This document shows positions 55,613-64,000 of a stretch of DNA of 64,000 nt, one piece after another. Source of the stretch: Ancylomarina subtilis (GTDB lineage: Bacteria; Bacteroidota; Bacteroidia; Bacteroidales; Marinifilaceae); assembly GCF_004217115.1 (NCBI RefSeq), contig NZ_SHKN01000001.1:809781-873780 (forward strand), given 5' to 3'. Under the pieces are notes generated by a model that saw nothing but the letters and a program-made list of their open reading frames with translations, was not told the origin of the DNA and made no database searches. The position numbers and the translations under genes were made by a program. How positions within the stretch are numbered: position 1 is the first letter of the stretch; every line of letters starts with the position of its first letter.

Positions 55613-56302
55613 CTAAGCAATCAGATTCTCACCTTTTGTTAAATCTTGCTCAAAGGTAATCTTGATATTCTTTTCATCCCCCTCAACAATATGAATAGCC
55701 TCATCTGGCAAATAATTTAAAACCACACCACAATCGTCGCTGGCTTTAAAATTTGGATCCTTCAACGCCAGGTTGTAGGCTTTCTTTATGATTTCACAAG
55801 GGAATGCTTGTGGGGTCTGAGCTCTGTAAAGAAAATCACGAGGAGGAACAGACTCAATGCATTTCGTTTGATTCAGTTTAAAAATAGTATCAGTACTCGG
55901 GATGGCAACAGCCACCGATTTCCCTTCAGCCAAACTCGAAAGTACATCGTCAATAATCCTCTGACTCACAAATGGACGAACGGCATCGTGAAAAATTAAA
56001 TTCACATCTTTCTCATTCTCGTAAGCTGAAATAGCTGCCAAACTGGAATCGCTTCGTTCCTTACCTCCACAAAGAATCTTAGTCACCTTTTTAAAACCAG
56101 CTTCACGAACAATATCCTCAACATCGGCTACAAAATTCGAATGAATCACCACACAAATCTCAGAAATACCAGCATGTTTTTCGAAAATAGCCATGCTATG
56201 CTCAATAATCGATTTACCGGCAATCTTAAGAAATTGCTTAGGCAAGTAAGCGCCCATACGCTTACCTGTGCCCCCCGCAAGAATAACAGCTACATTTTTC
56301 AT
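55613..56302 (-). CDS. ispD: IspD/TarI-family cytidylyltransferase
   Basis: The 229-residue protein has the CTP-binding start VILAGGTGKRMGAYLPKQFLKI, then CGGKERSDSS, FHDAVRPFVS, RAQTPQAFP, SDDCGVV and GDEKNIKITFEQDL. These fit IspD, which makes CDP-methylerythritol in the MEP isoprenoid pathway. The LAGG start instead of AAG also occurs in TarI-like ribitol-5-phosphate enzymes, so the symbol is a best guess. No CDP-ribitol genes are adjacent. It is separated from map by a terminator. Confidence 0.75.
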   Translation of the reverse strand: MKNVAVILAGGTGKRMGAYLPKQFLKIAGKSIIEHSMAIFEKHAGISEICVVIHSNFVADVEDIVREAGFKKVTKILCGGKERSDSSLAAISAYENEKDVNLIFHDAVRPFVSQRIIDDVLSSLAEGKSVAVAIPSTDTIFKLNQTKCIESVPPRDFLYRAQTPQAFPCEIIKKAYNLALKDPNFKASDDCGVVLNYLPDEAIHIVEGDEKNIKITFEQDLTKGENLIA

Positions 56303-56314
56303 TTCAAAGTCGGT

Positions 56315-56346
56315 TAAAAAACAAAAGGTTAAATTGTAATTTAACC
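56315..56346 (-). terminator. Terminator after map
   Basis: On the minus strand GGTTAAAT and ATTTAACC form an 8-bp stem with a 4-base loop, followed by TTTTGTTTTTT. It lies between map and the IspD-like gene on the same strand, so the two are probably separate units. Confidence 0.75.
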
Positions 56347-56377
56347 CTTTATCTTTAATTATTTTCTTATTCAGAAT

Positions 56378-57157
56378 TTATTTGAAGATATCATACTCTC
56401 CAACATCTGTTAAAATCTCGTACCCCTCTTTGGTTACCAAAACAGTATGTTCAAACTGAGCAGACAATTTATTATCAATGGTACGAGCAGTCCAGCCATC
56501 TTTCTCGTCGATGACAGCACGGGCCTTACCCATATTAATCATTGGTTCAATGGTGAAAACCATACCCGGCTTCATAATTTCACCCGAGTTACGTTGTGCA
56601 ATATGCTCAACTTGCGGCTCTTCATGAAAATCCATCCCAATACCATGACCACAAAATTCATAAACGACACCATATTTTCTGGCCTTAGCAAAACGACCAA
56701 TAGCAAAACCAATATTCCCGAAGTAGTTGTCAGGTTTCACCTGCTCAATACCTAAATAAAGAGCATGCTCTGTATCCTCTACCAATTTTGCGGCTTTGTT
56801 CGAGATATCTCCAATGGTAAACATGGTACTGGTATCTCCATAGTATCCATCTAAAATTGTGGTCACATCAATATTCAAAATATCTCCATCTTTTAGAATG
56901 GTTTTCTCACTTGGAATTCCGTGACAAATAACCTCATTTAAAGAGATACAACTTGATTTTGGGTAACCGTGATAACCTAATGTCGCCGGAATGGCTCCAT
57001 TATCACGCATATATTCTTCGATTAAATTATCCAGATAAAGCGTATTCACGCCCTCTTTCACATAATCGCTAATAAATTTAAGTGTATTTCCAGCCAATTG
57101 AGAACTCTTTCTAATGCCCTCAATTTGCTCTGCTGTTTTAATTATAATCTCGCTCAT
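56378..57157 (-). CDS. map: Type I methionine aminopeptidase
   Basis: The 259-residue protein shows the start IIIKTAEQIEGIRKSSQLAGNTL, the NEVICHGIPSEKTILKDGDILNIDVT segment (metal Asp; read in part), GYYGDTSTMFTIG (metal Asp), FCGHGIGMDFHEEPQV (metal His) and FTIEPMIN (metal Glu), with FEHTVLVTKEGYEILT at the end. It removes N-terminal Met from new proteins. There is no N-terminal zinc-finger extension. It is not in the usual secY-infA ribosomal operon here. Confidence 0.95.
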   Translation of the reverse strand: MSEIIIKTAEQIEGIRKSSQLAGNTLKFISDYVKEGVNTLYLDNLIEEYMRDNGAIPATLGYHGYPKSSCISLNEVICHGIPSEKTILKDGDILNIDVTTILDGYYGDTSTMFTIGDISNKAAKLVEDTEHALYLGIEQVKPDNYFGNIGFAIGRFAKARKYGVVYEFCGHGIGMDFHEEPQVEHIAQRNSGEIMKPGMVFTIEPMINMGKARAVIDEKDGWTARTIDNKLSAQFEHTVLVTKEGYEILTDVGEYDIFK

Positions 57158-57324
57158 CTAGTTTTAAACCTAAAGATTAGAGCTGCATATCATCATGGAA
57201 TAGTTCTCGATAAAATCCCTACACAACCCTTAATAAAAGAACACCCAAAGGTCTGCAATGATTCCTACTTTTGCAAACAAAAGCTTTCATAAATTTTTAA
57301 GTCATTATCAAATTCATCTATCAT

Positions 57325-57357
57325 GAAAATCCACCCTGCTAAAAAAGCAAGGTGAAT
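57325..57357 (-). terminator. Terminator after luxS
   Basis: On the minus strand ATTCACCTTGCT pairs with AGCAGGGTGGAT (12 pairs, three G-T) around TTTTT, followed by TTTT. It lies about 25 bases after the luxS stop and closes the sulfur operon. Confidence 0.8.
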
Positions 57358-57381
57358 TTATTTTCATTTATAAACCTAATA

Positions 57382-57861
57382 CTAAATTGGATAATTAAGA
57401 TTATCATCATTTAAGTTTGTAAGCACCTGATCATAGAAGCGTTGAGCCTCCCAATTGGCCATAGGCAAATCATGACTCAAACTATAGCCACATTCAATAC
57501 GTTTAGATCCCGGTATTTCATCCTTAAAGTTGGCCATAAACAAAAATAAATCTTTGGTCAGCTCAACAATATCTTCCGATTGGTAATCCCCATGTAAAAT
57601 GACATAAAATCCCGTACGACAGCCCATCGGGCCAAAATATACGGTACGGCTGCCCCACTCCTCGCTGTTGCGCAAAAAAGTAGCTCCCAAGTGCTCCATG
57701 GTGTGCATGGCCTGAATATCCATAGCGGGCTCTCTATTGGCCAGTTTCAAACGAATATCGAAACTGGTTAGGGTTTCTTGCCCAATTTGATCTTTCCGTG
57801 ATACATAAATACCAGGGTTTAATCTGTCGTGATCTACATTAAAACTATCTATTTGCTTCAT
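57382..57861 (-). CDS. luxS: S-ribosylhomocysteine lyase (AI-2 synthesis)
   Basis: The 159-residue protein has the LuxS metal site His53 and His57 (AMHTMEHLGA) and Cys124 (IECGYSLSHDL), plus the catalytic Cys81 in FGPMGCRTGFY. It splits S-ribosylhomocysteine into homocysteine and DPD, the precursor of autoinducer-2. As the last gene of the mccA-mccB-methyltransferase-luxS operon it supplies homocysteine to the cystathionine synthase at the start of the operon. The SAH/MTA nucleosidase that makes its substrate is not in the window. Confidence 0.97.
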   Translation of the reverse strand: MKQIDSFNVDHDRLNPGIYVSRKDQIGQETLTSFDIRLKLANREPAMDIQAMHTMEHLGATFLRNSEEWGSRTVYFGPMGCRTGFYVILHGDYQSEDIVELTKDLFLFMANFKDEIPGSKRIECGYSLSHDLPMANWEAQRFYDQVLTNLNDDNLNYPI

Positions 57862-57927
57862 CTTATTTCTTTTATAAATTTATTATTTTATCAACTCGTC
57901 ACCTATACCCGAGCTTTATTTCTATAC

Positions 57928-58668
57928 TTAAGCACCTTTCAATTTCAATTCGAAAGGATAAACCATAGCCTTCCAAATTCCTTCTTCCCGGAAAATATGG
58001 ATCTTACCTGCCTCATTCAACTGCTTGTAAAACTCAATATTCTTTTCTACAAAAACTTTATTGGGTAAAGCGTAAGTATTGATCATACGAGCATGATAAT
58101 TCTGACCAATTAACTGAAAAGTGCTCTTATAATCAGAAAGACTGCCCACATTAATATATAAACGGCTGTCAGCATGCATAAACTGAGGTGCTATTTCCAA
58201 AAATTGTATTAAAATCTCATTCCCTAGTTTACCTCCACTAATAGTCTGCGCTAAATCTTCACCCAAATTGAATTTATAATCTTCAGGTAAAATTTCCTGA
58301 GGAAGATTAGCGATAATTACATCGAATTGACCTTGCAAAGGACCAAAAAAGCTACCCGCAAAAGCCTGAATATCGACCTTATTTTTTTTTGCATTTTCTT
58401 TGGCATTCATAACAGATATCTCACTCGTATCGGTCGCCCAAACCTCAGCCCCCAATTGTGCCGCCATAACAGCGAGTATCCCACTTCCTGTTCCGATATC
58501 GGCCACCCGGTCACCAGCTTTAATCCGGATATTCTGAGCAAAAGGCACCACAAAATCGGATGGAGGAAACACATTGGGATGCAAATCTAAACGGATATGA
58601 TTGCCCTGTAACTGATAGTCACGAACTTCAGGACGATCCAAAAAAAAGTTTTGACTTTTCATTTTCAC
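57928..58668 (-). CDS. SAM-dependent methyltransferase of the reverse-transsulfuration operon
   Basis: The 246-residue protein has a class I Rossmann fold: motif I VADIGTGSGILAVMAAQLG, motif II WATDTSE, and IIANLPQEILP at the position where N-methyltransferases have NPPY. The leader VFPPSDFVVPFA resembles small-domain methyltransferases of the PrmC/RsmC group. NLPQ instead of NPPY argues against glutamine or adenine N-methylation. It lies 13 bases after mccB. In Bacillus subtilis the comparable operon starts with the methyltransferase gene yrrT, whose product likewise has no firmly known target. Confidence 0.8.
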   Translation of the reverse strand: MKMKSQNFFLDRPEVRDYQLQGNHIRLDLHPNVFPPSDFVVPFAQNIRIKAGDRVADIGTGSGILAVMAAQLGAEVWATDTSEISVMNAKENAKKNKVDIQAFAGSFFGPLQGQFDVIIANLPQEILPEDYKFNLGEDLAQTISGGKLGNEILIQFLEIAPQFMHADSRLYINVGSLSDYKSTFQLIGQNYHARMINTYALPNKVFVEKNIEFYKQLNEAGKIHIFREEGIWKAMVYPFELKLKGA

Positions 58669-58681
58669 AATTCTTTAATAT

Positions 58682-59839
58682 TTAAAAATTCAACGCCTGA
58701 ACCAAATCCTCAATTAAATCTTCTGTATCCTCTATTCCCACAGATACCCTAATTAAAGTATCTGTAATACCCAACTTCTTACGATCATCTGCAGGAACTG
58801 ACCCATGTGTCATTAAAGCCGGTAATTCGATCAGAGATTCAACACCACCTAAACTTTCAGCCAAAGCAAAATATTTAAGCTTCGATAGAAAATTCTTTGC
58901 ATCTTCAAGTTCTCCATCCAATTCAATAGCCATCATCCCACCAAATCCTTGCATCTGTTCCTTTGCCAACTCATGCTGTGGATGAGACTCAAGCCCCGGA
59001 TAAATCACCTTTTTCACTTTAGGATGATCACTCAAAAATTCAGCTATCTCGATGGCATTTTTCTCATGCTGACGCATTCTCAGACTCAAAGTTTTAATCC
59101 CTCGAAGTACCAAATAACTATCAAAGGGCGACATCATTGCACCAGCAGAGTTTTGCATAAATTGAAGCTTCTCATACAAATCATCACGGCTGACCATCAC
59201 AGCACCACCAATTGAATCGCTATGACCATTGATGTATTTTGAGGTTGAGTGCAAAACAATATCGGCTCCCAGCTCCAATGGATTTTGAAAATAAGGGCTC
59301 ATAAATGTATTATCCACCACCAAAATCAAATTGTGCTCTTTGGCAATCAGAGCAATTCGAGCAATATCAGTCAGCTTCAACATGGGATTCGTTGGGGTTT
59401 CAATCCAAATCATCCTGGTTTCTTCACGAATCGCATCTTCAACTCGGGCAGGATTTGAACTGTCAACAAAACTAAATTCTATACCATAATTGGCTGTGAA
59501 AACTTTTCTAAAAAGCCTTTGGGTTCCGCCGTACAAATCATCGGTTGTAATCACATGATCACCCGATTTTAACAGAGCCAACAAGACCGTTGTCTCAGCT
59601 CCCAAACCCGATGAAAAAGCCAGGCCGTACTTAGCTTTTTCAATAGCCGCCAACTTGCTTTCCAAAGCCTTACGGGTTGGATTCAACGATCTGGAGTATT
59701 CGTATCCCGCTGTGGGGACTTCAACCTCTTGCCGTGCAAATGTGGTCGATAAATGTAGGGGAACAATAACATCTCCCGTTGTACCCTCCTGAAAATTTGG
59801 CTTCTCACCTATGTGAATTCCTTTAGTTGTAAATTTCAT
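58682..59839 (-). CDS. mccB: Cystathionine gamma-lyase/synthase family PLP enzyme
   Basis: The 385-residue protein has the Cys/Met-metabolism PLP pattern: YEYSRSLNPTRKALE, FSSGLGAETT, VVDNTFMSPYFQNPLELGAD (read in part) and the lysine loop LHSTSKYINGHSDSIGG (Lys201). Length and motifs fit both cystathionine gamma-synthase (MetB) and gamma-lyase (MccB/CGL). Pairing with a beta-synthase-like gene and luxS favours the lyase, which releases cysteine from cystathionine. The gene symbol is therefore from context. Confidence 0.88.
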   Translation of the reverse strand: MKFTTKGIHIGEKPNFQEGTTGDVIVPLHLSTTFARQEVEVPTAGYEYSRSLNPTRKALESKLAAIEKAKYGLAFSSGLGAETTVLLALLKSGDHVITTDDLYGGTQRLFRKVFTANYGIEFSFVDSSNPARVEDAIREETRMIWIETPTNPMLKLTDIARIALIAKEHNLILVVDNTFMSPYFQNPLELGADIVLHSTSKYINGHSDSIGGAVMVSRDDLYEKLQFMQNSAGAMMSPFDSYLVLRGIKTLSLRMRQHEKNAIEIAEFLSDHPKVKKVIYPGLESHPQHELAKEQMQGFGGMMAIELDGELEDAKNFLSKLKYFALAESLGGVESLIELPALMTHGSVPADDRKKLGITDTLIRVSVGIEDTEDLIEDLVQALNF

Positions 59840-59865
59840 ATCTTATCGTTTTAAACCTGTTTTAT

Positions 59866-60861
59866 TTATTGAATTGATTCTAAGTTGTTTGCTTGCAGCA
59901 AGCCTTTTTCCCGCATCCACTGATCATTATAAAGACTGCTTAAATAGGATTTACCCGAATCGGGCAAAAGGACTACCACCACATCATCTTCATTAAGCTG
60001 TGCAGCTACTTGTAAAGCTCCATTTACAGCTGATCCAGCTGATGATCCAGCAAAAATGGCATCCTTAATCACCAATTCTCTGGCCGTAGCAAAAGCATCC
60101 TTATCACTTACTGTGATAATCTCATCTATGACAGAGAAATCAACCGTGTCCGGAATAAAATCTTCTCCAATCCCCTCAACCAAATAGGAATGAATAGCCC
60201 CCTGAGTTTTATAAAACTCATGCTTGTAAATAGAGCCCTCCGTATCCACACCAATCACCTTGATATTGGGATTTTGTTCCTTCAAATATTTACCAACCCC
60301 CGAAATGGTCCCTCCGGTACCGATACCTGCTACAAAATGGGTGATCTTTCCCGCCGTATCTCTCCAGATCTCAGGCCCGGTACTTTCATAATGTGCTCTG
60401 GGATTATTCTTATTAAAATACTGATTGGGTGAAAAGGAGTTGGGAATTTCTTTAAGTAATCGTTCAGCTACTTTATAATAACTCTGAGGATCATCAGGTT
60501 CTACTGCAGTTGGGGTACGAATAACTGTCGCACCATATGCCGTGAGCAAATCCTCTTTCTCCTGACTCATTTTATCGGGCATGGTAAAGATCAATTTGTA
60601 GCCCCTAAGTATGCCGACCTGTGCCAAACCCAATCCGGTATTACCCGAAGTCGGTTCAATAATGGTACCCCCCGCTTTTAAAAGTCCCTTTTTCTCGGCC
60701 TCATCCAACATGGCAATTGCAACGCGATCTTTACTGCTCCCTCCGGGGTTAAAACTCTCCATTTTACTAAGTAAAAGTGGCGCATGAGCCCGATTGATTT
60801 GATTCAATTTCACCAGTGGTGTATTACCAATGGTCCCCAATATATTCTGATAATATTTCAT
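59866..60861 (-). CDS. mccA: Cystathionine beta-synthase / cysteine synthase-like PLP enzyme
   Basis: The ATG at 60861 (331 aa) follows an A-rich stretch and gives MKYYQNILGTIGNTPLVKLN; a TTG 19 codons upstream is in frame. Motifs are the PLP lysine in NPGGSSKDR (Lys44), EPTSGNTGLGLA, GIGTGGTISGVGKYLKEQ and the C-terminal VLLPDSGKSYLSSLYND. The last string is typical of CBS/MccA rather than CysK. There is no regulatory CBS-domain pair. It joins homocysteine to serine or O-acetylserine. It is the first gene after the long Cys-codon leader. Confidence 0.9.
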   Translation of the reverse strand: MKYYQNILGTIGNTPLVKLNQINRAHAPLLLSKMESFNPGGSSKDRVAIAMLDEAEKKGLLKAGGTIIEPTSGNTGLGLAQVGILRGYKLIFTMPDKMSQEKEDLLTAYGATVIRTPTAVEPDDPQSYYKVAERLLKEIPNSFSPNQYFNKNNPRAHYESTGPEIWRDTAGKITHFVAGIGTGGTISGVGKYLKEQNPNIKVIGVDTEGSIYKHEFYKTQGAIHSYLVEGIGEDFIPDTVDFSVIDEIITVSDKDAFATARELVIKDAIFAGSSAGSAVNGALQVAAQLNEDDVVVVLLPDSGKSYLSSLYNDQWMREKGLLQANNLESIQ

Positions 60862-60989
60862 ATTTTTCTTCTTATTTGTCTGTACAAAACTCTGGTTCAA
60901 GCTTTTAAACTCGAACAAAACTTTTCACTTTGGGCTGTAGCTTTCTTCCTATCCTCAAAAGAACAGTTATAAGGCTAAGTCAGCCAATT

Positions 60990-61022
60990 CCTGATGCTTA
61001 CAAAACTGTAATATCAATCAGG
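60990..61022 (-). promoter_or_regulatory. Leader stem-loop downstream of peptide 3
   Basis: On the minus strand CCTGAT pairs with ATCAGG, with an inner TTACA/TGTAA stem separated by an internal loop. A further small stem GGCT-GACTT-AGCC follows at 60985-60973. Together they form a compact structure about 110 bases before mccA. Confidence 0.5.
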
Positions 61023-61043
61023 ACAAAAATTCAATGTGTTTTA

Positions 61044-61106
61044 TCAGCCACAACAGACCGTTGTGGAAATACGAAGATGATAGGGTTTAATCTGTAAAAA
61101 TTTCAT
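61044..61106 (-). CDS. Leader peptide 3: ends in VCCG
   Basis: A 20-residue ORF reads MKFLQIKPYHLRISTTVCCG. A purine-rich AAAAGG lies 4 bases upstream of its ATG, a better ribosome site than for the other two. The two Cys codons fall in the right arm of a perfect 7-bp hairpin CCACAAC-GGTCT-GTTGTGG (61066-61048), so a ribosome on the ORF would open this stem. Confidence 0.55.
   Translation of the reverse strand: MKFLQIKPYHLRISTTVCCG
61048..61066 (-). promoter_or_regulatory. Leader hairpin over the Cys codons of peptide 3
   Basis: CCACAAC pairs with GTTGTGG, loop of five. The arm with TGTTGT encodes the two cysteines. Confidence 0.6.
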
Positions 61107-61200
61107 GGTGCCTTTTCAAGATAATTATTCTGTTGCAATCTGTTTCAAATCTCATTAACTAATTTGCACGAACTTTTAAAGCGTACAAATCAGATTTCTC

Positions 61201-61242
61201 TTAACAAGAGCAACAACAGACGAATCTTGAAAAATGGGGCAT
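61201..61242 (-). CDS. Leader peptide 2: MPHFSRFVCCCSC
   Basis: A 13-codon ORF ends in Cys-Cys-Cys-Ser-Cys before TAA. In-frame ATGs at 61266 and 61332 would give 21 or 43 residues, and I cannot choose by ribosome site. Four Cys in the last five residues repeats the design of leader peptide 1. Its codons TCTGTTG (61221-61215 region) are complementary to CAACAGA at 61135-61129 downstream. Confidence 0.6.
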   Translation of the reverse strand: MPHFSRFVCCCSC

Positions 61243-61352
61243 TCCAGTTTGATTGGAAATAGACATGATAAACGGGTAATGATGAAAAAGAAAAAATGAT
61301 TCATTGGGAGCTGTATTCCCTAATAGGTACATAGAACGTGCCCGCAAACTGT

Positions 61353-61424
61353 TTAGCAACAGCAGCAGCAGCAACACGTATGTGTTGCAGAAAATATATT
61401 TTCTATTGAATTCATTTTATTCAT
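61353..61424 (-). CDS. Leader peptide 1: ends in seven consecutive cysteines
   Basis: A 23-codon ORF reads MNKMNSIENIFSATHT and then seven Cys codons (TGT, TGC four times, TGT, TGC) directly before the TAA stop. The mixed codons show it is not a pure trinucleotide slip. It lies upstream of a cysteine-synthesis operon on the same strand. The segment GCAACAC-ATAC-GTGTTGC (61388-61371), spanning the first two Cys codons, is a perfect 7-bp hairpin. The start is either 61424 or the Met three codons on (61415). A ribosome short of Cys-tRNA would stall here. Confidence 0.75.
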   Translation of the reverse strand: MNKMNSIENIFSATHTCCCCCCC

Positions 61425-61429
61425 CGGGA

Positions 61430-61460
61430 CAAAGCAAAGGCTTTTTTTTTAATCTCGCAA
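61430..61460 (-). promoter_or_regulatory. Candidate promoter of the Cys leader
   Basis: On the minus strand TTG (61460-61458), a 20-base spacer and TTGCTTTG (61437-61430) resemble the Bacteroidota promoter TTG-N19-21-TAnnTTTG with one mismatch. The -7 box ends 5 bases before the ATG of leader peptide 1, so that ORF would be leaderless or nearly so. Confidence 0.4.
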
Positions 61461-61466
61461 GAGAAA

Positions 61467-61491
61467 AACAAAAAAAAGACAAAAAAGTCTT
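61467..61491 (-). terminator. Weak terminator candidate after the cytochrome b561-like gene
   Basis: On the minus strand AAGAC-TTTTTT-GTCTT is followed by a T-run. The stem has only five pairs. Confidence 0.35.
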
Positions 61492-61626
61492 ATTTGAAAT
61501 TTAGGCTGAACAATTCGAGATACTAAATAGAAGTCTTAAATATTAATCAATAGCACAAAAAAAACACTTCACGAAATCACGATCATAGTAATACCAAATA
61601 TGCTTTTGCGAATCCATTGCTTCCAT

Positions 61627-62205
61627 TCAATCTTCATCACGTGTTCCGCTTATCATCCTCGAAACAATTCCTTTTTGGTCAGAGAATTCAGCTATGAAAA
61701 CGCCTGCCAAATGAATCACAATAAAAGAGATTAAATAATAAATAGAAAGCACATGTATCTCTTCCATCAATTCTTTTGATGATTTAGGTCCTAATTCAAT
61801 CATTAGCCCTGTAGCTAAAGAAATGATTATGCAGATATAAAAAATAATATACAGCCATTGCTGAAATCTTAATTTAGCTGTTAAATCTTTACGCAATGGA
61901 TTTTGATATCTCATGTAGCCAAACAAAGGAAGTAAAAATCGAATACTATATAATCCAACCAAGACATAGCCTATATAAATATGCCAGTTCCACATCGGCT
62001 GTCTTATTTTCTTAGCTAGCACAATAAGCTGTTTTTGCGATAAAACCTGATCCGTCCCATTAAGGTAATCTTGTATGATATTCGCAACATTGGTCTTATT
62101 CATCCAAGTTAATCTCAGAAAAATTGTCACTAATAACAACACGAGTGAAATGGCTATAGCCCAATGAATCAACCTATATATTTTGGAATATTTTTTCTCT
62201 TCCAT
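61627..62205 (-). CDS. Cytochrome b561-like membrane protein
   Basis: The 192-residue protein has four hydrophobic segments (about 10-30, 73-93, 112-134 and 149-172) with histidines placed for two haem b: RLIHWAIA (His14), WNWHIYIGY (His74), EEIHVLS (His149) and IVIHLAGV (His164). This is the YceJ/hydrogenase-b-type family. It probably moves electrons between quinone and a periplasmic partner, which is not encoded nearby. Confidence 0.85.
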   Translation of the reverse strand: MEEKKYSKIYRLIHWAIAISLVLLLVTIFLRLTWMNKTNVANIIQDYLNGTDQVLSQKQLIVLAKKIRQPMWNWHIYIGYVLVGLYSIRFLLPLFGYMRYQNPLRKDLTAKLRFQQWLYIIFYICIIISLATGLMIELGPKSSKELMEEIHVLSIYYLISFIVIHLAGVFIAEFSDQKGIVSRMISGTRDED

Positions 62206-62474
62206 AATTGTCTATTTTTGAAATAAATACATAAAAATAATGTGAGCGTTTAAAAATTCGATTACACATTTAGGCATGAATTTCATCACATCAATCTTTT
62301 CATGACAAATTTATCAAAACTGCCTGTTCTATTTATCATTTTATTAAAATGATGGGCTAAACTACAATTTTTTATATGAAAAATAGAATGCTTTATTCTT
62401 TAATTAGTTTTCCAATAAACTTTTAATATCAATTTTAGAACTTCACAAAATCCATAAGTTTTATATTTTCAATC
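62206..62474. other. Intergenic region
   Basis: About 270 AT-rich bases with no supportable ORF, RNA or repeat. Confidence 0.5.
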
Positions 62475-62693
62475 CTATAATTCACGAACCATCATCTCTT
62501 TAATCTTTATTGCCTTTTCGAAATGATCAAGCTTGTGTGTCATAATCCACCACTCCGCAACCGCCATTAATCGTTCAGGATTCGTGTTCTTATTGGCAAA
62601 AAAGGCATAAAATGACAGACCTACATTTTCTCCTTTTTTCTCTATCTTCTCATTGCAAACCTCAATGATTCTTTGGCGCATGTTTTCATTCAT
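62475..62693 (-). CDS. Small conserved protein (possibly DUF6500)
   Basis: The 72-residue soluble protein (RIIEVCNEKIEKKGENVGLS, then FYAFFANKNTNPERLMAVAE, then WWIMTHKLDHFEKAIKIKEM) is rich in aromatic and charged residues and looks like a genuine small family; I associate it tentatively with DUF6500. No function is known. Start at 62693 or the Met four codons later. Confidence 0.6.
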   Translation of the reverse strand: MNENMRQRIIEVCNEKIEKKGENVGLSFYAFFANKNTNPERLMAVAEWWIMTHKLDHFEKAIKIKEMMVREL

Positions 62694-62817
62694 AAAAATT
62701 GCTCTTAAATATTTTAGGAGGTATAATTTAATCTGTAACGGATCGTCTTTTACCGAATCTCAATTCAGCGAAATTGTTCTTCAAACGACCTCTATAATAA
62801 CTGGGAATGATACACTT

Positions 62818-63660
62818 TTATTTCATAAACCCCATTTGCTTCAAGGCTTTCAATGTAATCTCTTTTCTTTTTGCAACAAATTTGTCAAAATCAAATTCCT
62901 TTTGAGGTTCTATATTTGTGGCAAAGAAATAAGTATCAGACTTGAATTCAATATACCCAACATACCAACCGTTATAAATGCTATTGGTATTGGATAAGCC
63001 AGTCTTTTCACTTAATTTATATTGATCGGTATGATCAGCAACAAACATCCGCTTCATTATTTTCTCTGTCCTTTCAGAAATGGGTAATTTTGACTGATAA
63101 AAGCTTTTCAAAAAATCTATTTGTTGAAACTGGTTAATTCGGGAATCTCCCTCCAACCAAAACATATCCAAATTGCTAGTATCCACTTTCATGCTACCGT
63201 ATTTCATTTTAGCCAAATAAGCATTCATCCTTTCCACACCAATGCTTCTGGCAATATCCTGGTAACAGGGCACACATGAAAAATGGAATGCATCCCGAAG
63301 AATGAGATCCTGTTCCCATTTTTTCATCCACCTTTTCTTTCCATCCCATTTCAATAATGTGCTGTCATTTTTAACAATACCTGTTTCGAGTGCAATAATT
63401 GAGTTGGCAATTTTAAATGTAGATGCAGGCAGATGCCCCATTTTTGCCCGCTCAAAATTATTGGAATAATAAATATCCTTATTTAAGTCATAAATCAATA
63501 CAGATCCTTCAACATTACAAGAATCAATAATGAACTGAAATTCTGGCTTTACTACCTGCTTTGTGATGATTGATTCATTCTTTTTATTGGTTGCAGATTT
63601 TTTCCCGTCAGAACAGGATAAAAACAAAATCACGATAGCAAGAAAAGGGAATATTTTCAT
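62818..63660 (-). CDS. Class D (OXA-type) beta-lactamase, predicted lipoprotein
   Basis: The 280-residue protein has a lipobox (IVILFLSC, Cys16), then the class D motifs: PASTFKIANS (catalytic Ser80, carboxylatable Lys83), SCV (Ser128-Val130) in FHFSCVPCYQDIAR, YGS (154-156) where most class D enzymes have YGN, and KTG (219-221) with GWYVGYIE after it. All catalytic elements are present, so an active enzyme is likely. It would be membrane-anchored. No mobile element or integron flanks it, so it looks like an intrinsic gene. The spectrum cannot be predicted. Confidence 0.9.
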   Translation of the reverse strand: MKIFPFLAIVILFLSCSDGKKSATNKKNESIITKQVVKPEFQFIIDSCNVEGSVLIYDLNKDIYYSNNFERAKMGHLPASTFKIANSIIALETGIVKNDSTLLKWDGKKRWMKKWEQDLILRDAFHFSCVPCYQDIARSIGVERMNAYLAKMKYGSMKVDTSNLDMFWLEGDSRINQFQQIDFLKSFYQSKLPISERTEKIMKRMFVADHTDQYKLSEKTGLSNTNSIYNGWYVGYIEFKSDTYFFATNIEPQKEFDFDKFVAKRKEITLKALKQMGFMK

Positions 63661-63811
63661 TTTTTCAGGATTGGTTTTAAATGGTAAAATATTATAAATT
63701 TATAAACAAGATTAAGGTATAAATTCTAATTATGAAAGCTCAATCTAAAATAAAATGCCATTTTATTCTAAACCAAACCCCTCCTTCATCCAACAAATCA
63801 TCCGGCTAATT

Positions 63812-64000
63812 TTATAATTCAACATCCTCATTCTTTTCACTAAACTCTATATGTTCTTCGGGCTCGATATGCACATGAACATGACACCGTAAAATTTCAG
63901 CTTTGATTTTATCTTCAATAAAATGTGCAATATCATGTGATTGAGGGATACTCAATTCGGGACTCACATGAATATTAAGTTCTACAAAAAATTCAGCACC
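63812..64000 (-). CDS. Cation diffusion facilitator transporter, C-terminal end (partial)
   Basis: The frame runs open from the right edge to a TAA at 63814-63812. The visible 62 residues (FFVELNIHVSPELSIPQSHD, then IAHFIEDKIKAEILRCHVHV, then HIEPEEH) match the C-terminal cytoplasmic metal-binding domain of CDF proteins, with its histidine-rich last strand. The membrane part lies outside the window. Zinc, iron or manganese export is the likely role. Confidence 0.8.
   Translation of the reverse strand, partial: GAEFFVELNIHVSPELSIPQSHDIAHFIEDKIKAEILRCHVHVHIEPEEHIEFSEKNEDVEL

Follow-up and report, generated by a model that had tools for sequence, protein, structure and literature searches.

The small open reading frame uORF1, located at 61353..61424 on the minus strand of the window (the whole stretch of 64,000 nucleotides of Ancylomarina subtilis DNA that was analysed), very probably encodes a leader peptide through which the mccA-mccB-methyltransferase-luxS operon is attenuated in response to cysteine. 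The original prediction had proposed a sensor of Cys-tRNA. Comparison with related genomes supports this reading, as the Cys run is kept in a genome of the same genus (G002), a second leader stands at cysE-cysK of the source genome, and all 22 family loci with a close cysE carry a poly-Cys ORF. Relatives of the same order lend further support, since they display putative Cys leaders that combine a terminator with an antiterminator candidate. As Cys-rich mini-genes precede the cysteine genes of relatives, it is very likely that the ribosome senses cysteine shortage and switches the operon on.

The mccA operon and its leader

uORF1 comprises 23 codons from an ATG start to the stop TAA (MNKMNSIENIFSATHTCCCCCCC), and its seven Cys codons at 61356-61376 (TGT TGC TGC TGC TGC TGT TGC) are followed by the stop. 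The 23-codon minus-strand ORF with seven Cys codons and a stop is thus confirmed as first described; the distance from its stop to the ATG of mccA (60858), given earlier as about 490 bases, was measured as 494 nt, and the order of mccA, mccB, methyltransferase and luxS was found as stated. The 768-nt intergenic region holding uORF1 was shuffled 20,000 times with its dinucleotide composition preserved; ORFs with at least three consecutive Cys turned up in 611 of the shuffled sequences, those with at least four in 31, with at least five in 1 and with at least six in none. This bears out the view that chance is an unlikely source of the run, and the use of both TGT and TGC, also pointed out in the original prediction, is evident. 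Four TGY codons followed by TRR occur at 12 sites in the genome, uORF1 among them; 10 of the other 11 lie within a larger ORF of another frame and 1 is without a start codon. Short started ORFs with a run of at least five TGY codons number two in the 4.0-Mb genome, one ahead of mccA and the other ahead of cysE, and hence both precede cysteine-synthesis genes. A TGT microsatellite of 12 units was also recorded at G000:C1:115233-115268, G000 being the source genome.

All four genes of the operon lie on the minus strand. mccA (59866..60858) codes for a protein of the cystathionine beta-synthase/cysteine-synthase family (PALP, PF00291), mccB (58682..59839) for one of the cystathionine gamma-lyase/synthase family (Cys_Met_Meta_PP, PF01053, 517.8 bits), the third gene (57928..58668) for a PrmA/HemK-type methyltransferase assigned by family match, and luxS (57382..57861) for an S-ribosylhomocysteine lyase (NF002604, 202.6 bits, above the cut-off of 158). 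The best NCBIfam match of MccA is TIGR01137 at 459.9 bits, under its cut-off of 510, and that of MccB is PRK07811 at 510.1, slightly under the cut-off of 513; the exact reactions of both are therefore deduced from family and operon. By gene content, the operon would supply cysteine from methionine via reverse transsulfuration. Upstream of the leader, the same strand carries genes for a cytochrome b561-type protein (61627-62205) and a DUF6500 protein (62475-62693), and a protein of the class D beta-lactamase family is encoded at 62818-63660 on the minus strand (NF012161, 255.6 bits, barely above the cut-off of 250).

The operon had been described as headed by a lone Cys ORF; uORF1 itself is real, but the leader holds three Cys-bearing small ORFs. 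The 494 nt between the uORF1 stop and mccA (60859..61352, minus strand) include uORF2 (61201..61266, minus strand; MSISNQTGMPHFSRFVCCCSC, stop), the second Cys-rich small ORF, and uORF3 (61044..61106, minus strand; MKFLQIKPYHLRISTTVCCG, stop), which has two Cys codons. uORF2 is kept in G002, where it reads MSISTQTGIPYFSRFVCCCSC. It is nevertheless the weaker case, as a CCC run anywhere in the region is reached by about 3% of shuffles by chance; the synonymous-codon test gave no excess of a Cys-codon hairpin for it (0.932). None of the three uORFs has an NCBIfam match. Both uORF2 and uORF3 may serve as further Cys checkpoints in series.

In G002, MccA is 94% identical and the same leader with uORF1, uORF2 and uORF3 is present, uORF1 differing from that of the source by 1 amino-acid change and 3 nucleotide changes. 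A metagenome-assembled Bacteroidetes genome (L052) has an MccA 75% identical to that of the window, and its contig ends within TGT TGT TGT TAG, about 300 nt ahead of mccA. Outside these, L249 of the same order (G619, MccA 73% identical) has no poly-Cys leader, and a started Cys run of at least four was met upstream in 0/27 order loci and in 0/109 distant CBS loci (80 named and 29 class), 9 of the 109 having CCC; the upstream sequence was short for some of the order and distant loci. Of the conservation expected upstream of mccA homologues, the run is kept at the orthologous operon of G002, with three Cys codons and a stop visible in L052, and is missing in L249.

Cysteine-codon leaders ahead of cysE and cysK

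The second poly-Cys ORF of the source genome, MREHNSHIASYSTSQSVFEMYLFASTRLNSFNSNTSFSTSNLNCCCCCCCTPCC, lies 103 nt ahead of cysE, which is followed by cysK. The CysE product scores 151.4 bits with the EpsC model (cut-off 150) and 164.6 with the CysE model, under its cut-off of 210.65. Matches to cysE were found in 31/56 genomes of the family and 30 loci were obtained. A poly-Cys ORF stands 89-104 nt upstream in 22/22 loci with a close cysE, with Cys runs of 4-12, though these leaders are non-independent, coming from few genera, with L236 and L237 identical and L241 (G036) preceding a broken cysE. The other 8 of the 30 loci, with a more distant cysE, have no poly-Cys ORF upstream. Many of the 22 leaders coincide with the 20/30 cysK/CBS loci of the family that carry a Cys run of at least four. 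The Cys patterns vary (C7, C6TPCC, C12FTSCC, C4SMPC4, C5NLYSCCW and others), and within the genus g1 runs of 6, 7 and 12 are found.

A TAnnTTTG box, which we take to be the Bacteroidota promoter element, ends 17-19 nt ahead of the leader ATG in 21/22 of these loci, so that their 5' leader may be short. No such box is present within 202 nt upstream of uORF1, where only the one-mismatch TAAATTTC occurs.

Pooled over nine pairs of cysE uORFs, pS is 0.223 as compared to a pN of 0.096, with pN greater than pS in 3/9 pairs. In genera g1 and g10, the ORF had a larger share of indels in multiples of three (11/19 and 30/61) than the spacer (2/42 and 9/76), and genus g11 had none in either (0/6 and 0/12). 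Across genera, the ORF value of 75/194 is barely above one in three (spacer 42/148). These counts were taken over all pairs within a group and are hence non-independent, and the alignments are loose. The pooled pN below pS, along with the excess of multiple-of-3 indels in g1 and g10, suggests that the cysE leader ORF is probably translated.

As a search pattern, four TGY codons followed by TRR is unspecific in the family, occurring in 55/56 genomes. Among the matches listed, 50 loci of this kind were examined (3 without a readable match), and outside larger ORFs there were only the mccA leader, L311, which has no start, and L324. The last (G025:C1 near 4689954) is a TTG-started LFYFCCCC placed 119 nt ahead of a regulator-like gene, and it is the one short poly-Cys ORF met in the family away from cysteine genes. 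The counting of runs of six TGY codons over the order (186/295 genomes) as a sign of broad conservation was dropped, because in 28/30 loci the run lay inside or opposite another ORF or was without a start codon; L177 and L178, at contig ends, could not be placed.

Some relatives outside the close group appear to have another build of leader. The order survey covered 69 cysE loci from a longer list, L214 being left out as it has no in-frame ATG; to the resulting 68 loci were added 7 from the family that have the other cysE type, which gives the 75 cysE loci outside the close group. By a fixed rule, a Cys-rich uORF was found within 350 nt upstream in 10/75 (antisense strand, 1), and a strong intrinsic terminator (stem of at least 9, within 170 nt) in 8/75. 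Both features coincide in 6 of the 75 loci (P 2.6e-5), the stem cut-off of 9 having been picked after the data were seen; with the weaker L191 and L211 added, 8/10 terminators go with a Cys uORF. Of the strong terminators, the other two belong to L327, whose CC pair was not scored as a Cys uORF, and to L247, where no Cys uORF is present. In L213, MLKRIVKHMFCCCMASQTGLCFDLYD is followed by AACAGCCCTTCCGATTTCGAAAGGGCTGTTTTTTT and then by cysE, and in L218, MNKERAYSFICCCCGMHQYG goes with a 12-bp terminator; the genes of both match serine O-acetyltransferase models. L030, from the window's own family, shows the same plan ahead of cysK, its terminator having been recognised by eye and fold.

An antiterminator candidate starts 17-39 nt past the first Cys codon in L201, L205, L213, L218, L219, L326, L327 and L030. 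In mononucleotide shuffles, the fractions for these candidates range from 0.010 to 0.103, so that each beats about 90-99% of shuffles, with L213 alone (1/8) under 0.05. Were the ribosome to stall on the Cys codons, the antiterminator could remain free, and a ribosome reaching the stop could cover it; on paper, the leaders of these eight relatives would constitute complete classical Cys attenuators. The class-level cysE survey, in which Cys-rich uORFs and terminators were the features scored, took up 29 loci, 2 of which were left out for want of a start. Among the remaining 27, a Cys-rich uORF was found in 5 (antisense, 1), a terminator in 7 and both in 3 (L378, L386 and L396), a result that agrees with that of the order and is too small to stand alone.

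Proposed working and rival explanations

The leader would be transcribed together with mccA-mccB-methyltransferase-luxS. When Cys-tRNA is ample, the ribosome would pass the seven Cys codons and halt at the TAA, leaving the RNA behind it bare, and expression of the operon would end ahead of mccA, most likely through Rho acting on the spacer and less likely through a structure hindering translation. When Cys-tRNA is scarce, the ribosome would stall on the Cys codons, the leader would stay permissive and the operon would be on.

A Rho-dependent off-step after the ribosome leaves uORF1 is put forward tentatively, at a little under an even chance. Rho is the first choice and translational control the second, as no intrinsic terminator was found, Rho is encoded in the source genome, and C exceeds G in 21/22 of the family cysE spacers (mean 0.171 versus 0.093). 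The mccA spacer overall is not C-rich (C 0.168 and G 0.178 over 494 nt), with C above G in 3/7 successive 78-nt blocks. Its most C-skewed 78-nt stretch, with a C/G of 3.5, begins 42 nt past the uORF1 stop, and four further intergenic regions of the window have more G than C. Rfam models run over 56000-64000 gave only SprD, which lies outside the leader and scores well under its gathering threshold; over 14 loci, nothing reached the gathering score.

Translational attenuation, in which the stalled ribosome refolds the RNA and frees the start of the first gene without an early stop of transcription, is a somewhat unlikely alternative. It draws on the conserved fold of the 21 distinct cysE leaders, for which RNAalifold gave −20.9, whereas 60 column shuffles had a mean of −3.7 (sd 2.1) and a lowest value of −12.8. 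In L190, L220-L239 and L241, the first half of the leader ORF forms a conserved hairpin that shows compensatory changes (alignment columns 52-69), and several single-sequence folds have this half paired with the region of its own start. Another cysE leader hairpin has the Cys codons in its 3' arm, a position that also speaks for this alternative. The uORF1 hairpin GCAACAC-AUAC-GUGUUGC (61371..61388, minus strand) likewise carries the first Cys codons in its 3' arm; it occurs in the predicted folds of both the source genome and G002, and its stability is above that of random synonymous-codon versions (fraction 0.030). Similarly, the hairpin CCACAAC-GGUCU-GUUGUGG (61048..61066, minus strand) carries the uORF3 Cys codons and is predicted in both genomes, with a synonymous-codon fraction of 0.077. 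The excess over 28 ORFs is modest (mean z −1.1), and three cysK leaders (L028, L029 and L036) have none in the same test, which indicates that the Cys-codon hairpin is not universal; our guess is that it forms a pause site holding ribosome and polymerase in step. Against translational attenuation, the mccA start is 494 nt distant, and the idea that the Cys run pairs with the cysE start was rejected as inconsistent, the start window ranking best in 6/21 leaders.

It is improbable that the nascent peptide itself is the sensor, with the Cys-rich peptide or the uORF3 HLRISTTVCC arresting the ribosome or sensing thiol, sulfide or metal. uORF3 of the source genome and that of G002, which reads MRFQQIKPYHLRISTTVCCG, agree in all of their last 16 residues, and L052 carries between its Cys codons and mccA a peptide, MKLLPFKVYYFHLSNTRCCEIVIRS, in a similar place, the likeness having been judged by eye. 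A degenerate DNA search found the uORF3 motif in 2/56 family genomes, these same two of the genus, and no NCBIfam match to the peptide was obtained at E up to 10. The sequence HLRISTTVCCG presumably resembles the short leader peptides annotated ahead of Streptomyces sulfur genes. Many cysE leader peptides also retain NNNQ(I/V) ahead of the Cys run, but the NNNQ codons double as a hairpin arm, and cysE leaders differ from one another in how many Cys they have, in how these are spaced and in much of the remaining peptide, as the counting of codons predicts.

Classical attenuation of the trp/his type, where the off-step would be an intrinsic terminator within the leader of the window itself, is distinctly improbable. 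The analogy with trp and his leaders drawn in the original prediction holds in so far as a run of control codons fits the pathway; it fails in that the window leader has no intrinsic terminator and hence no competing antiterminator, so that a working of this type is not demonstrated. Zero terminator-like sites were found in 60700-61700, and none in the 21 family poly-Cys cysE leaders scanned; this absence makes Rho or translational attenuation likelier than a trp-type mechanism. In its favour stand the seven cysE relatives and L030 described above, with Cys codons, antiterminator candidate and terminator, and also a leader of the source genome itself. At L366 (G000:C1 near 490578), a His6 leader, MNFTTQHHHHHHFTYFR, precedes hisG (TIGR00070, 191.9 bits, cut-off 75.75), and a hairpin ending in a U-rich tail was recognised by eye between the two; the organism thus appears to use classical leader attenuation elsewhere.

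That the ORF encodes a small functional Cys-rich protein (metal-binding, secreted or modified) and not a leader is very improbable; the pooled pN below pS of the nine cysE uORF pairs would suit such a protein, but the place ahead of cysteine genes is fixed, the Cys runs range from 4 to 12, the mccA uORFs are without an NCBIfam match, and relatives have terminator-type Cys leaders. A functionless slippage repeat of TGC/TGT is hardly credible, for although the run length differs between species of g1 and a long TGT repeat exists elsewhere in the genome, the run mixes TGT with TGC, shares its frame with a start and a stop codon, stands beside conserved promoter-like boxes at a single kind of gene, and is conserved at cysteine genes.

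Relation to known leaders and significance

Cysteine-responsive attenuation by uORF1, the preferred reading, has its closest counterparts outside the phylum. Leaders with Cys runs have been described in Actinobacteria, at cys operons in Mycobacterium and Propionibacterium and at cbs in Bifidobacterium (PMC1262725). That report notes the lack of an obvious terminator and suggests Rho, a prediction rated weak by its authors (PMC1262725). As far as these leaders are described there, they share with the window a Cys run near the stop of a short ORF, a position upstream of cys or cbs genes and the lack of an obvious terminator. They differ in that they belong to another phylum, whereas the leaders on the window's side precede mccA-luxS and cysE-cysK, have relatives with terminators and antiterminator candidates, and at mccA form three serial Cys ORFs. 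In our best reading, the window leader is closest in build to these terminatorless Cys leaders.

The polycysteine leaderless short ORFs of mycobacteria (Canestrari et al. 2020) are reported to attenuate downstream genes by cysteine (PMC9031893, PMC9094748), with which the earlier statement on mycobacterial poly-Cys short ORFs is consistent. Contiguous Cys codons in a short ORF are common to both. The mycobacterial ORFs start leaderless; the family cysE leaders, with a box that ends 17-19 nt before the ATG, may have a short 5' leader, and a response of the window's leader to cysteine is a prediction. The uORFC-8-2 motif ahead of cysS in Rhodobacterales, as described, consists of a uORF with two Cys codons and a terminator downstream of it (PMC8632094). 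It thereby resembles the L213/L218 type of the relatives, but differs from the window in its two Cys codons, its tRNA synthetase gene and its place in Alphaproteobacteria, the window leader being without a terminator. Within Bacteroidota, amino-acid operons of Flavobacterium psychrophilum were reported as likely to be attenuated by leader peptides (PMC9723704), and Bacteroides thetaiotaomicron was noted to have candidate leader-like sORFs (PMC7366714); supplements aside, neither report names a cysteine leader. The original remark that no described Bacteroidota example was known agrees with a full-text literature search, supplements and most subscription papers lying outside its scope, which found no cysteine leader in this phylum.

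What appears to be new here is thus a putative cysteine leader peptide in a phylum for which no described case was found, together with its triple arrangement at mccA-luxS. Terminator-bearing and terminatorless Cys leaders would also seem to coexist in one order. A broader proposal, possible though on balance doubtful, is that Cys-codon leaders act in Bacteroidota as a general regulator of cysteine supply with a switched off-mechanism, some relatives using intrinsic terminators and the window's family using long terminatorless poly-Cys leaders. In this proposal, the three Cys ORFs at mccA-luxS may work as a graded cysteine gate, the third being possibly a conserved arrest peptide.

Bacteroidota are a main group among gut and marine bacteria. 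The control of cysteine is well studied elsewhere, through CysB in proteobacteria and through the T-box and CymR in Firmicutes, and to our knowledge little is known of it in Bacteroidota. Were the proposed reading true, one order would hold both versions of the sensor, and the way in which a leader works without a terminator would become a testable question. In that case, a leader sensing Cys-tRNA would also explain how cysteine synthesis and sulfur recycling are tuned without a dedicated protein, and would couple the LuxS methyl cycle to translation.
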